The translations under genes and the position numbers were made by a program. A stretch of DNA of 64,000 nt from Draconibacterium sediminis (GTDB lineage Bacteria; Bacteroidota; Bacteroidia; Bacteroidales; Prolixibacteraceae), in contig NZ_JRHC01000001.1 of the NCBI RefSeq assembly GCF_000949475.1, positions 806,001-870,000 of the forward strand, read 5' to 3'. Below, in pieces: positions 2,085-45,465 of this stretch. The first letter of the stretch is position 1, and each line of letters starts with the position of its first letter. A model generated the notes under the pieces. It saw nothing but the letters and a program-made list of their open reading frames with translations. It searched no databases and was not told where the DNA came from.

Positions 2085-2723
2085 ATGCATATACATGAAC
2101 GAAATCCGTGGAGAACATTAATCGCAGTATCCGTATTTGTGGTTATTCTCGTTATTGGTTTTTTAACCATGCCAAAACCGTTGTTTGAATACGAAAAAAG
2201 CATGGACGAAAGCATAGAGGCTTTGCTCAATGGAGAGGACTATTTCTACCCCTGGGAGCTGGAAGATGTGATTGCCAATAAACCCGACAGTATCGTTTTG
2301 TTTGATATCCGCGACAACTTCGTGTTCGGACAGGGACATATTCCAGGGGCCGAGAATTTATCGGCAAGTACTTTGGCCGATCCCGATAACCTGGAGCGTT
2401 TAACCGCACTTCGCGATATGGGTGTAAGCATCGTTTTATATGGCGAAAACGAACTACAGGCCAATGGCCCATGGATGTTTTTCCGCCAGGTAGGTTTTAA
2501 CAACATCAAACTGTTACTGGGTGGTTACGAGTATTACAAAGCCAATGAAGATGATTTGTACAGTACTATTGACGACGATGCATATTTTAGCGGATTTCCG
2601 CGGTTTAACTATGCTGAAATGGCCGCCCCAAAAGACGGTTCGGAGCTAAATGCCGATCAGGACAACAAACCTGTTCAGGTACGCCGCCGCGAAAAAACAA
2701 GTGTTGCCGCAGGAGGTTGCTAA
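2085..2723 (+). CDS. Membrane-anchored rhodanese-like protein with C-terminal GGC (copy B)
   Basis: 212 residues with the same plan as copy A: a membrane helix (about 11-28), a rhodanese-like fold (about 55-152) containing LFDIRDNFVFGQGHIPGAEN, and a tail ending VQVRRREKTSVAAGGC. The active-site loop reads YGENELQANG and has no cysteine. The only cysteine in the whole protein is the last residue, C212, so any sulfur chemistry would have to use it. Outside the tail the two copies are clearly diverged, which makes the matching tail striking. Last gene of the sulfur operon; a structured RNA and a terminator follow. Confidence 0.8.
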   Translation: MHIHERNPWRTLIAVSVFVVILVIGFLTMPKPLFEYEKSMDESIEALLNGEDYFYPWELEDVIANKPDSIVLFDIRDNFVFGQGHIPGAENLSASTLADPDNLERLTALRDMGVSIVLYGENELQANGPWMFFRQVGFNNIKLLLGGYEYYKANEDDLYSTIDDDAYFSGFPRFNYAEMAAPKDGSELNADQDNKPVQVRRREKTSVAAGGC

Positions 2724-2736
2724 AAAACCATATTAT

Positions 2737-2909
2737 ACCAATTGTATTTCAACGTGAGCTTTAAGCGAAATGTTGAGATTACAATGGTTAATGCCGATAA
2801 TAAACGAAAGAGACTTTAGGAGTTTGCGAACTAAAGACTCATTTCGATATTAAATCGGTATTAGTATATATTAAAAGTCCCGTTGAAATTTTTCATCGGG
2901 ATTTTTTTT
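2737..2909 (+). ncRNA. Structured RNA element, copy 1, ending in an intrinsic terminator
   Basis: Fourteen bases after the rhodanese stop codon there is a folded segment of 173 bases. Helix 1 pairs 2737-2746 with 2779-2788, extended by 2747-2753 with 2772-2778, and carries the apical sequence GTGAGCTTTAAGCGAAA (2754-2770). Helix 2 pairs ATGCCGAT (2791-2798) with ATCGGTAT (2854-2861). It encloses helix 3, GAGACTTTAG (2810-2819) with CTAAAGACTC (2831-2840). A terminator closes the element. A second copy at 44045-44228 on the other strand keeps the apical sequence and helix 2 exactly but has different helix sequences elsewhere with pairing preserved. I do not recognise it as a named RNA family. 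Confidence 0.65.
2878..2909 (+). terminator. Intrinsic terminator of the sulfur operon / RNA element
   Basis: A hairpin with stem TCCCG-T-TGAAA and TTTCA-T-CGGGA around a TT loop (2878-2901) is followed directly by eight T residues (2902-2909). It ends the rhodanese transcript and the structured RNA. Confidence 0.85.
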
Positions 2910-41765: not shown

Positions 41766-43019
41766 ATGACGTTTGAAGAACTTGGCATTAATTACGATTT
41801 ATTAGATGCCATAGAATACATGGGATTTAAAAATGCTACTCCGATTCAGGAGCAGGCAATTCCCATTATATTGGAAGGTAGCGACCTTATTGCCTGTGCC
41901 CAAACCGGAACAGGAAAAACCGCAGCTTTTTTGCTCCCTATTCTTGATTTAATTGCCGATTTGCCCGGCGGAGAAACCTCAACACTGATTATTGTACCAA
42001 CGCGCGAGCTGGCCATGCAAATCGATCAGCAGGTGCAGGGAATTGGCTATACCATGGGCATCCATTCTATAGCCTTGTACGGCGGTGGCGATGGAGACGA
42101 ATGGGGCCAACAAAAACGAGCATTGACCAAAGGAGCCGACATTATTATTGCTACTCCCGGAAAATTGATCTCGCACCTGAACCTTGGGTACGTAAAATTT
42201 GATAAGATCGAATTTCTGATTCTCGATGAGGCCGACCGGATGCTGGATATTGGTTTTTACGAAGACATTACGAAGATTATTTCATACCTGCCAAAAGAGC
42301 GCCAAACGCTGATGTTCAGTGCAACCATGGCACCGAAGATCAGGAAGCTGGCTTCGGAGATCCTGAATAATCCAAAGGAGATAAACATTGCCATGTCGAA
42401 ACCGGCAGAAGGCGTGTTACAGGCCGCGTACCTTATTTACGATAAACAAAAGGGCGATTTGGTGGCGCACCTCATTTCGGAGAACCCGGATTACAGCAGT
42501 GTTATCATTTTCTGCTCAACCAAGCGTGTAACCAACGAATTGGCAAAAAGGCTAAAAAAGAAAGGTTTTGATGCCGAAGCTATTTCCTCGGATCTTGAAC
42601 AGCGTGAGCGCGAAAATGTACTGAACGGATTCCGATCCAGACGGATTCGAATTTTGGTGGCTACCGATGTAATGAGCCGTGGTATTGATATTAAAGATAT
42701 TAACCTGGTGATCAACTACGATGTGCCGGGCGATGCCGAAGATTACGTGCACCGCGTTGGACGAACTGCGCGTGCCGATTCAACAGGTGTGGCACTTACC
42801 TTGGTGAACGAAGACGATATGTACAAGTTCCATCGTATTGAGGAGCTGATCGAGCGCGAAGTATTTAAAATTCCGCTACCCGAGCAGTTTGGCGAAGGCC
42901 CGGCATGGCGAACTCCTTCGAAAGGGAAAAAGCACGGGCACGGGAAATTTCATAAATACAAAAAAGGCAACAGCCAGCACAAACACCGTCAGTCGTACCA
43001 GAAAAAAAAGAAACAATGA
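41766..43019 (+). CDS. DEAD-box RNA helicase
   Basis: 417 residues. Helicase motifs in order: Q-motif KNATPIQEQAIP, I AQTGTGKT, Ia PTRELA, II DEAD, III SAT, V ATDVMSRGIDI and VI HRVGRTAR. The tail (about 370-417) is rich in lysine, histidine and glycine, as in RhlE-like cold-shock helicases, and probably binds RNA. Which RNA it remodels cannot be told. The stop overlaps the next start by four bases (ATGA). Confidence 0.94.
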   Translation: MTFEELGINYDLLDAIEYMGFKNATPIQEQAIPIILEGSDLIACAQTGTGKTAAFLLPILDLIADLPGGETSTLIIVPTRELAMQIDQQVQGIGYTMGIHSIALYGGGDGDEWGQQKRALTKGADIIIATPGKLISHLNLGYVKFDKIEFLILDEADRMLDIGFYEDITKIISYLPKERQTLMFSATMAPKIRKLASEILNNPKEINIAMSKPAEGVLQAAYLIYDKQKGDLVAHLISENPDYSSVIIFCSTKRVTNELAKRLKKKGFDAEAISSDLEQRERENVLNGFRSRRIRILVATDVMSRGIDIKDINLVINYDVPGDAEDYVHRVGRTARADSTGVALTLVNEDDMYKFHRIEELIEREVFKIPLPEQFGEGPAWRTPSKGKKHGHGKFHKYKKGNSQHKHRQSYQKKKKQ

Positions 43020-43543
43020 ATTGGAAAGGATTGGCCACTTTCATTTTAGTTGTAGTCTCATTTAGCTTGTTTGCACAGGAAAATCCTTTAAGCCGTTTTG
43101 AAGATATAATTGGAAAGTGGGAAGGTACCGGCGAGGGTTTTGGAAATGCCAAATCAAAAATTACAGCCGATTATTCGTGGCTGATGAACAAACAATACAT
43201 CGAAGTAAAACACCATTCGGAGTTTGAACCAACAGCACAAAATGCAGATGGTGAAGTGCACGACGACAAAGGAATTATAAGTTTCGACCGTGCCCGAGAA
43301 ATGGTACTATTTCGTCAGTATCACAACGAAGGTTATTTTACTGAATATGCTTTGAATGATTCCATCTCAACACCAAAACATCTTGTTTTTGAAACCGAAC
43401 GGATTGAAAACTTTGTTCCGGGAGGCCGGGCGCGTTTTACCATAAATATTATTGCCGATAACGAAATTGAAACCGTTTTCGATGTTGGTTTCCCGGAAAG
43501 GGAAATGGCTTGTTTTGGCACCAACCGAATGAAAAAACAATAA
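43016..43543 (+). CDS. Secreted DUF1579-like beta-barrel protein
   Basis: 175 residues: signal peptide (1-20, ending SLFA) and a lipocalin-like beta-barrel domain with IIGKWEGTGEGFG, DYSWLMNKQYIEVKH and a C-terminal EREMACFGTNRMKK. It resembles DUF1579/THAP4-type fold proteins, some of which bind haem, but no ligand residue is obvious. It is coupled to the helicase by a four-base overlap, which is odd for a secreted protein. Its 3' end (from 43483) is duplicated downstream. Confidence 0.65.
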   Translation: MNWKGLATFILVVVSFSLFAQENPLSRFEDIIGKWEGTGEGFGNAKSKITADYSWLMNKQYIEVKHHSEFEPTAQNADGEVHDDKGIISFDRAREMVLFRQYHNEGYFTEYALNDSISTPKHLVFETERIENFVPGGRARFTINIIADNEIETVFDVGFPEREMACFGTNRMKKQ

Positions 43544-43990
43544 AAGTTTTGAACACTGATAAGACTGATTTAGCTGATTCTCGCTGGAAGACGAGTTTAA
43601 ACACAAAGACGCAAAGACACAAAGCTGTTTTCAACCACATTAGACACATAGAACACATTACTTTTGCCGACTGTTTTTTGCTTACTGCCTACTCATTCTG
43701 AAATCAAAAATCGTTAATCATCATTTGAAATTCTTTTCGCTGTTGGTTTCCAGGAAAGGGAAATGGCTTGTTTTGGCACCAACCGAATGAAAAAACAATA
43801 AAAGTTTTGAACACTGATAAGACTGATTTAGCTGATTCTCGCTGAAAAGAAGAGTTAAATCACAAAGATCCTAAAGCACAATTTTTTTTGAACCACATAG
43901 ATCACATAAGACACATTAGAATTTTGGCGACTGTTTTTAGCCTATTGCCTATTCATTCTGAAATCAAAATTCATAATTCTTTTTGATGTA
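43483..43990 (+). repeat. Tandem duplication of the 3' end of the preceding gene plus spacer
   Basis: A 258-base unit occurs twice: 43483-43740 and 43741 to about 43990. The first 104 bases (43483-43586 and 43741-43844) differ at one position and include the last 20 codons and stop of the DUF1579-like gene. The remainder of each unit aligns by wording (CACAAAGA, ACCACAT, ACTGCCTA/TTGCCTA, CATTCTGAAATC) but is diverged. So the coding-derived part is almost identical, while the repeat-rich part is not. Confidence 0.8.
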
Positions 43991-44044: not shown

Positions 44045-44077
44045 ATAAAAAAATCCACCGGCTTTCACCGGCGGATT
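44045..44077 (-). terminator. Intrinsic terminator of the Spondin_N transcript
   Basis: On the minus strand, AATCCGCCGG pairs with CCGGTGGATT (one G-T pair) around TGAAAG, followed by TTTTTTTATTG. It ends RNA element copy 2, about 155 bases after the Spondin_N stop codon. Confidence 0.85.
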
Positions 44078-44228
44078 CTTTGCTCTCATTTTCCCTCGCA
44101 CCTATACCGATGAGCAATTGAATTAAGCCTTAACATCGTTTCACTCTTTAACGCTTTTCAATTGTCTATCGGCATAAACCATTGTAATTCTAAAGTTTCG
44201 CTTAAAGCTCACTTTAAAAACAATTGGT
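44045..44228 (-). ncRNA. Structured RNA element, copy 2, ending in an intrinsic terminator
   Basis: On the minus strand it starts one base after the Spondin_N stop codon. Helix 1 pairs ACCAATTGT with ACAATGGT and is extended by TTTTAAA with TTTAGAA, capped by GTGAGCTTTAAGCGAAA (44196-44212). Helix 2 pairs ATGCCGAT (44168-44175) with ATCGGTAT (44104-44111). Helix 3 pairs CAATTGAA (44157-44164) with TTCAATTG (44115-44122). Against copy 1 (2737-2909) the apical and helix 2 sequences are identical, while helix 1 and helix 3 have changed on both sides. I do not recognise the family. Confidence 0.65.
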
Positions 44229-44229
44229 A

Positions 44230-45465
44230 CTACTTACTTTTTCTGATTGTTACCTTAATAATTTTATCTACGTCAGGATACATAAAGCCATCGTCGAGCA
44301 AACGAACTACGCCGCCTTCATCTTCATCCATCGATTTTGTTCCCGGGTATTCGTTCACTTCGGTACCGGCATCCCACAGCATAATTTCGTCAGTTATATC
44401 CTGGGCGTCGTTTCCAAAGTTCAACTTAATACCACTGTCGCCAAAGGCAAAGAAAATATCGTTGGAGTTGCCCAACATACTGGCAATACTCAGGTATTGG
44501 TTCGGCTGGGCATCAATGCTAAAGGTGTATGTATCGCCTGGGAAAAGCGGACCTGCACTGTTTTTTCCGTCAGGAACAGCGTAAGCACCTGCGTGATATC
44601 CCATTCCAATCAGGCTGGCTGCCAGATCTCCCGGATTTCCGGTTTCTGCCAATAACTCCAAACCTTCGCCACGATCGGCTGTGTTGTTGGTGAAGATGGG
44701 CATTTCGTCTTTTGCGTGTACCGCCCAAAGAACGGGTGCCACAGGCGAAACATAACCGCTGTGCATTTCCAGGTATTCACCCAGCGGACCTGCATTTCCG
44801 GTTTCTGCCAAAGCTTCCAGTCCCATTCCGTAATCCAGTTCACCATTCATAAAAATCGGGTGCTGATCCATTGAATGAACCACCCAGGCAGTAGGTGAAA
44901 GTGGTGTCGCCGATCCGGGAAGCACATTGATCGTTAGTGTAAACATGCTTTCTCCGTTGTATTCAAGAAGCACCTGAATATTTTCTTCTGTGGTTGAAAC
45001 CATGCCGACGGGATTACTTTCCACCTCATCGGTAGTCGATCCGTCAACCTCTGTTCCGGCATCCCATAAATAGATCATACTTGTAATGTCGCCCTCCAGT
45101 GCCGTTCCTCCGGGAAATAGTTCAATTCCATCGTCGCCCGGAGCATAAAACCAGTCGTTTGATGCGCCGTACATCGAGGCAAATGATAATTTGTGACTTG
45201 GTCCGGCATGAAAATGAACCGTAATGGTTTCGCCGGGATGTGCAGGAGGAGCTGCATCGCCGCCGGTTACGCCAAATTCGGCTCCTGCTTCAAAATAGTG
45301 GTAGGGTACAGAAACGTTTTCAACCGTTATCGTGTACATTTTTGCAGGAACCACATCGGGTAACATACCGCTTTTTGTTTCCGGTTCCATCATTTCGTCT
45401 TTCTCGCAACTTGTAAAAAGGAATACAGCCAAAGCTGCGACCATTGTAAATTTTAATGCTTTCAT
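44230..45465 (-). CDS. Lipoprotein with two Spondin_N domains
   Basis: 411 residues: a lipoprotein signal ending FLFTSC (C20), then two Spondin_N domains (about 43-200 and 265-400). Each has a YTFSI/TITVENVS strand, a S-x-ASMxGxSND-x-F(Y/F)A-x-GDxGI block and a DAGTEV motif. The middle holds two HSMDQHPIFMNGELDYGMGL and HAKDEMPIFTNNTADRGEGL repeats. Spondin_N proteins in bacteria are surface or periplasmic proteins of unknown role. A pho-box-like direct repeat lies 48 bases upstream of the ATG. Confidence 0.85.
   Translation of the reverse strand: MKALKFTMVAALAVFLFTSCEKDEMMEPETKSGMLPDVVPAKMYTITVENVSVPYHYFEAGAEFGVTGGDAAPPAHPGETITVHFHAGPSHKLSFASMYGASNDWFYAPGDDGIELFPGGTALEGDITSMIYLWDAGTEVDGSTTDEVESNPVGMVSTTEENIQVLLEYNGESMFTLTINVLPGSATPLSPTAWVVHSMDQHPIFMNGELDYGMGLEALAETGNAGPLGEYLEMHSGYVSPVAPVLWAVHAKDEMPIFTNNTADRGEGLELLAETGNPGDLAASLIGMGYHAGAYAVPDGKNSAGPLFPGDTYTFSIDAQPNQYLSIASMLGNSNDIFFAFGDSGIKLNFGNDAQDITDEIMLWDAGTEVNEYPGTKSMDEDEGGVVRLLDDGFMYPDVDKIIKVTIRKSK

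Follow-up and report, generated by a model that had tools for sequence, protein, structure and literature searches.

What is the strongly folding sequence that follows a rhodanese-like gene near the beginning of this window (the whole stretch of 64,000 nucleotides of Draconibacterium sediminis DNA analysed here), and why does it occur a second time on the opposite strand? The original prediction was of a structured RNA in two copies, each folding into three helices and a terminator, with compensatory changes between them, which could be a 3′-UTR-derived small RNA or a cis element. Comparison with related genomes leads to a different answer. The element is a mobile insertion, nearly always located between genes and mostly at TTA or TAA, and it duplicates exactly 3 bp of its target.

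Element copies in the window

Copy 1 occupies 125 bp on the plus strand (2736..2860), downstream of a host gene at 2085..2723 (plus strand) which was read as rhodanese-like in the earlier work. Copy 2, also of 125 bp, lies on the minus strand (44105..44229) behind a host gene of 411 amino acids (44230..45465, minus strand). The apical sequence GTGAGCTTTAAGCGAAA, said to be identical in the two copies, is indeed exact in each of them (2754-2770 on the plus strand and 44196-44212 on the minus strand); in the control for this search, which allowed up to three mismatches, 0.41 matches were expected and 5 of 100 shuffles reached two. The stem bases are common to both copies, the arm changes TTTCAAC versus TTTTAAA are present in the sequence together with the changes in their partners, and both copies fold far beyond shuffled sequences (z of −7.0 for copy 1, folded as 2737-2861, and −5.9 for copy 2). 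They are matched at E 2.3e-18 and 1.6e-17, respectively, by a covariance model that was built with both of them included.

The structured unit is thus real, but its boundaries had to be corrected to those given above, and in place of three helices and a terminator we find two adjacent hairpins as the conserved unit, TACCAATTGT ... ACAATGGT followed by TGCCGAT ... ATCGGTA. Hairpin 1 of copy 1 (ACCAATTGT ... ACAATGGT, with GTGAGCTTTAAGCGAAA at its apex) spans 2737..2788 on the plus strand and is defined by folding and by covariation in 38 subtype representatives; hairpin 2 (TGCCGAT ... ATCGGTA) spans 2792..2860 on the same strand and is defined by folding and by the arm permutation test described below. 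Alignment of the ends places the left terminal inverted repeat, which carries TACCRATT and an inner box at approximately positions 19-28, at 2736..2765 and the right one at 2831..2860, both on the plus strand and both imperfect.

Empty sites and target duplication

The flanks of the two copies were compared by BLAST over 37 genomes of the genus, and this was followed by direct comparison of the sites. The copy 1 site is empty in the sister genome G009, which reads CCATATTAGTA where D. sediminis has CCATATTA-element-TTAGTA, and it is likewise empty in G042. At the copy 2 site G009 is again empty, with CACCTACTT in place of CACCTA-element-CTACTT, as is G024, in which the target letters have diverged. 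Two further genomes, G012 and G007, lack the element at the copy 2 site but have other unaligned bases there, which counts against the insertion reading. Since G009 holds a single TTA at the first site and a single CTA at the second, these triplets have been duplicated in D. sediminis (TTA at 2733..2735 and 2861..2863; CTA, in plus-strand coordinates, at 44102..44104 and 44230..44232), and the element is the intervening 125 bp. The right-hand CTA of copy 2 doubles as the TAG stop codon of the minus-strand gene at 44230-45465, so that the protein is unchanged. The terminators near copy 1 (approximately 2877..2909, plus strand) and downstream of copy 2 (44047..44079, minus strand) lie outside the element; they persist in the empty sites of the element-free G009 and therefore belong to the host genes.

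The duplication is not confined to these two copies. An exact 3-bp duplication flanks 84 of 138 located copies, where 45.1 are expected and none of 10,000 shuffles of the downstream triplets is as high; both ends could be placed for each of these 138 distinct copies, and only L056 comes from outside the genus. With one copy per orthologous group the figure is 74 of 116 (38.8 expected), and for the D. sediminis genome alone it is 15 of 26 (7.5 expected). A duplication is also present in 115 of the 147 copies that were clustered into subtypes, a set that overlaps the 138 and was likewise chosen by motif, so that the two are not independent. The exact duplication is missing from 54 of the 138 copies, a number in which decay and misplaced ends are not separated. 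Over 145 rows, in which seven places are counted twice, once on each strand, the excess is confined to a length of 3 (z of 2.3, 7.7 and 4.1 per position), and the dominant flanks are TTA/TTA (54) and TAA/TAA (26), with TAG/TAG, CTA/CTA, TTG/TTG and TAC/TAC also represented.

Copy number and distribution

Searching the 6-Mb D. sediminis genome with the 17-base apex gives 11 places at two or fewer mismatches, eight of which were judged by eye to be real, while L005, L008 and L009 were regarded as chance matches. Two other loci, L036 and L060, were excluded from the copies as they are without the middle motif. A covariance model (R1) of the left half of the element, constructed from six copies including both from the window, has 34 matches in this genome at E≤10, of which 27 reach E≤0.01; what had been described as two copies is a dispersed family. 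The search with such a model, which had been suggested as a check of the original prediction, thus yielded further homologues, and covariation is seen between their subtypes.

At E≤0.01, R1 finds matches in 20 of 41 genomes (D. sediminis and relatives), with 1 to 66 per genome; of the 24 genus genomes besides D. sediminis, seven have none. The most loaded genome is G019 with 66 matches, many of which are near-identical. The length of the element is mostly 90-150 bp. A strict pattern (TACCAATTGT, 22-52 bases, AATGGTTAATGCCGAT), searched in one genome per species, recovers at least 112 stretches. Among the 80 loci listed from these matches are Draconibacterium orientale, D. mangrovi, Maribellus, Marinifilum and Marinilabiliaceae, together with Crocinitomicaceae and flavobacterial records, a metagenome-assembled genome (MAG) labelled Chitinophaga pinensis and two Chlorobiota MAGs, labels which may err. 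A broader model (R2) reached E≤1e-5 in two of 392 genomes of the phylum (D. sediminis and one other), at low sensitivity, with 13 candidates scored per genome. The distribution over Bacteroidota looks patchy and not universal. No element matches occur in the viral contigs, nor in the plasmids, which were searched with two subtypes.

Structure and covariation among subtypes

The 147 motif-chosen copies form 53 subtype clusters, and one representative of each was used in the tests. The complementarity of the two arms averages −7.35 for hairpin 1 and −11.15 for hairpin 2, compared with −3.06 and −5.51 when arms are permuted, and both values beat all 2,000 permutations; the claim that pairing is kept while the sequence changes is borne out for both hairpins across the 53 clusters. 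Complementarity extends to the inner parts of the element's two ends (−10.17 versus −7.16 permuted, again beating 2,000 of 2,000). The ends consist of an outer TACCRATT and, around positions 19-28 of each, an inner box which, by eye, is subtype-specific: GAGCCTT, ATGCCGCAT/ATGTCGCAT or TAGTCCAA, depending on the subtype, and absent from some representatives.

Left halves could be aligned for 38 of the 53 representatives, and in this alignment 85.8% of cells pair. Double-change cells number 57, versus 22.9 in shuffles, and the covariation score is 0.234 versus 0.104, with a slide of −1 giving 0.195. The measures are not uniformly strong, the number of pairs changed on both sides (nine) being reached by 68 of 500 shuffles. 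A strand test, in which G-T mismatches are counted against A-C mismatches, gives 10 versus 6 in the 53 representatives, 29 versus 12 in the 145 rows, and 46 versus 12 in the 147 copies, which one amplified genome dominates. The internal junction ACAATGGTTAATGCCGAT is conserved beyond what a simple MITE would need, and this is partly an effect of the search pattern.

Some copies carry an additional small hairpin of the CCCGAA...TTCGGG type, which lies in, or replaces, the CAATGG within the junction (L026, L030, L039, L040 and L041, and in G019 the loci L176, L177, L184, L190 and L196). The impression is of one palindrome nested inside another, the inner one being REP-like. Similar small hairpins are located inside hairpin 2 of L346 and L401. 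Two other G019 loci, L180 and L191, are very short derivatives, reduced to some 24-40 bp as if internally deleted, with TTA flanks and with ends still recognizable as TACC-like and GGTA.

Fate of copies after insertion

Thirty orthologous pairs of copies were available, none of which draws on dropped rows, and the 23 with an element identity of at least 0.85 were used, the seven below this value being left out. In the 23 we count three compensatory, 27 one-sided and 54 broken pair changes, versus 1.9, 29.4 and 73.4 when the same substitutions are placed at random; all 30 give 18, 60 and 101. Substitutions are rarer at paired sites (89 of 1775) than at unpaired sites (83 of 900), a comparison that is biased in this direction because only one sequence of each orthologous pair was used to call pairing. 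The lower rate could mean some constraint on single copies. That individual copies are retained on account of their structure finds no good support; it is from one mobile lineage to another that the structure is preserved.

Genomic context

Both window copies do lie just behind a stop codon, as had been noted, but this is no general rule for the family. Of the ORFs adjacent to copies in the D. sediminis genome, 24 have their 3′ end towards the element and 28 their 5′ end; the corresponding numbers for all 138 copies are 131 and 117, from ORFs which were called mechanically and with flanks that are short at many loci. As there is no preference for a gene end, the position of the two window copies is a coincidence. 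A small RNA derived from a 3′-UTR would have a fixed place behind stop codons and a terminator of its own; the copies in D. sediminis show no such place, and the terminators beside the two window copies are those of the hosts. Copies within an ORF of 80 or more amino acids are rare (none of the 26 located in D. sediminis, five of 138 overall).

Search for a mobilizing transposase

We have found no transposase that mobilizes the element among four profile families (Y1_Tnp, PF13359, PF01609 and rve) in a search of partial coverage. The D. sediminis genome has six Y1_Tnp rows, two of which are pieces of one broken gene, and none lies between element copies. One of these genes, L071, has a single 9-of-10 match to the left end of the element about 120 bp upstream. 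L070 and L071 are flanked by short palindromes of their own (e.g. GCCGTCAGCTTTAGCTGACGG and CCCGACATTTATGTCGGG), which are possibly the true REPs of this genome.

At E≤1e-5 D. sediminis has no PF13359 and no PF01609 gene, and rve is found at one place. In G019 there are no PF13359, four PF01609 and no rve genes; its assembly is fragmented and could lack an IS present in several copies. None of 43 PF13359/PF01609 loci (L204-L246, of 13 + 75 matches) has a TACCRATT/AATYGGTA end pair with matching flanks, and the DDE_Tnp_4, DDE_Tnp_1 and rve genes were set aside as helpers, the ends having been inspected at seven of 16 rve loci. No IS-sized element with these ends is present in 1.2 of the 5.13 Mb of the complete relative G005. 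Forty stretches of G019 around end-like motifs (100 of 105 places listed), several of which ended at contig ends, hold only elements, decayed pieces and chance matches. A scan of 438 loci for end pairs returned three: two consist of small copies already known, and the third, in L425, is weak and separated by 3.5 kb.

At L353 a gene for what by eye is an IS630-like transposase (L353:996-2039) directly abuts half a copy of the element. It was rejected as an autonomous copy, as the gene's own ends start with AACCT and the right end of the element is missing; by eye it is an unrelated insertion or rearrangement.

A single-hairpin sister class

G005 and G007 contain an element of about 160 bp that folds into a single long hairpin (−56 to −67 kcal/mol in three examples). 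It has TACC ends and the inner box AAAATGCCGYAT in common with the two-hairpin element, and matching 3-bp TWA flanks were counted by hand at eight of 11 distinct places. The two classes look to have common ends and target and a different fold.

Nature of the element

The best explanation, to which we assign a probability of about 0.9, is a palindromic, MITE-like transposable element that is non-autonomous and built of two adjacent hairpins. We base this on the empty sites, the 3-bp duplications, the dispersed copies, the complementarity of arms and ends, the absence of a preference for 3′ gene ends, and the sister class. Against it weigh the absence, in the searches above, of a transposase gene with these ends, the 54 copies without an exact duplication and the conserved junction. 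Of the features by which a MITE is recognized, three are seen here, while for ends shared with an autonomous mobilizing element no counterpart was found in the families and loci covered: a short dispersed element that is mostly extragenic (125 bp, with 27 matches at E≤0.01), terminal inverted repeats, which are imperfect and roughly 30 bp in length, and a target site duplication with the corresponding empty site.

A structured regulatory RNA conserved at transcript ends, whether a 3′-UTR-derived small RNA or a cis element, would account for the strong folding, the covariation between subtypes and the place of both window copies just behind a stop codon, and the lower substitution of paired sites would agree with it, as would the 54 broken pairs against 73.4 at random, though this comparison is biased. 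We nevertheless regard it as highly improbable, in view of the empty sister sites with their host-owned terminators, the 3-bp duplications, the lack of preference for 3′ gene ends, the scarcity of compensatory changes in situ (three of 84 changed pairs) and the absence of a clear bias of G-U over A-C (10 versus 6 in the 53 representatives). A known RNA family is not indicated either, the whole window being without an Rfam match at the gathering score; the 13 matches at E≤1 in 2700-2920 are every one below it. An ordinary repeat without pairing, which had been named as an outcome that would overturn the original prediction, is correct as to the repeat and wrong as to the pairing.

The shape of the element recalls a REP- or REPIN-type sequence moved by a Y1 (RAYT) transposase via single-stranded DNA. 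Its hairpin doublet, in which the bases are conserved and the arms vary but compensate, is much like that of the REPINs in the available text of PMC3116915, Y1 genes are present in D. sediminis, and L071 has the single end-like motif upstream. It is, however, very unlikely that the element belongs there: the 3-bp flanks change together on its two sides (TTA/TTA, TAA/TAA, TAG/TAG, TTG/TTG), no Y1 gene of D. sediminis lies between element copies, and at least two of these genes have other palindromes. REPIN/REP-RAYT insertion is not known to duplicate its target, nor is Y1 transposition known to yield covarying 3-bp flanks. The present element has 3-bp duplications. We give almost no weight to a spread without transposition, in which intergenic regions would recombine or undergo gene conversion, since unrelated loci show target duplications and clean empty sites. 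What it could explain is the apparently common site of L014 in D. sediminis, L281 in G024 and L317 in G005, at which the latter two hold a different subtype; repeated insertion could also explain this.

For the MITE-like element, we infer that a transposase acts in trans and that the hairpins matter for mobility. An enzyme encoded elsewhere would bind the inner box, cut at TACC/GGTA with a 3-nt stagger and move the element; copies landing in intergenic DNA or right at a stop codon would be tolerated and then decay. The pairing pattern would be selected or generated during mobility, and not through regulation of neighbouring genes, with single-stranded DNA, a cruciform or an origin from folded-back ends as possible routes. 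More doubtful is the further proposal of a distinct class of miniature elements with a patchy spread over Bacteroidota, in which a transposase outside the four tested families requires a folded two-hairpin substrate, with its conserved junction and subtype-specific inner boxes, and yet produces a 3-bp duplication, and in which the single- and two-hairpin versions share this enzyme. Such a class, if real, would combine a REPIN-like shape with IS-like chemistry.

Covariation between two copies can accordingly mark a mobile palindrome and not a regulatory RNA, the deciding control being the empty site, and searches for noncoding RNAs in Bacteroidota such as Draconibacterium could mistake this element for one.

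Relationship to known elements

ERIC, Correia and RUP are palindromic, intergenic mobile repeats of roughly 100-130 bp with a TA target. The present element resembles them in size and in its palindromic intergenic mobility, and differs in a target of exactly 3 bp, mostly TWA. Elements of the IS5/IS1031 type produce 3-bp TNA duplications and so share with it the 3-bp T-A target; the difference lies in D. sediminis being without PF01609/PF13359 at the threshold used and in the 43 loci, none of which has the element ends. The BrickBuilt repeats contain arrays of short direct repeats. Those of Porphyromonas gingivalis are intergenic and are called MITEs in the available part of the source (PMC5771137), and as intergenic Bacteroidota repeats they are comparable to ours. 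The MITE of Cardinium, also in a Bacteroidota genome, differs in that, according to the accessible text, it derives from an IS982-family element and is exclusive to that strain (PMC9769881).

Bacterial MITEs in general are characterized in the available text of a review as short and intergenic, with terminal inverted repeats, flanking direct repeats and a transcript capable of forming a stem-loop (PMC10969869). The element agrees with this in its length, its terminal inverted repeats, its direct-repeat flanks, its intergenic location and a transcript that could fold into stem-loops, and differs in having two separate hairpins and a conserved junction and in that a parent IS has not been found. 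No word beginning with Bacteroid or Flavobacter occurs in that text. REPINs, in the portion of the description available, are extragenic doublets of hairpin-forming REPs with conserved bases and variable compensating arms (PMC3116915). The element is similarly a hairpin doublet with compensating arms and extragenic spread; unlike them it has a 3-bp target duplication, no RAYT gene between its copies in D. sediminis, and two hairpin bases that do not resemble each other (ACCAATTGT versus TGCCGAT). We have found no published description of this MITE-like family with its unusual two-hairpin build in the literature, including a search for the 18-base junction, and the available parts of PMC3733652 and PMC2267715 do not describe it.

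Other repeats in the window

A direct repeat of 123 bp, 95% identical and with a spacing of 258, is found at 43467-43847. It covers the 3′-terminal part of the gene at 43016-43543 together with the adjoining intergenic DNA, and parts of this region match numerous places in relatives.
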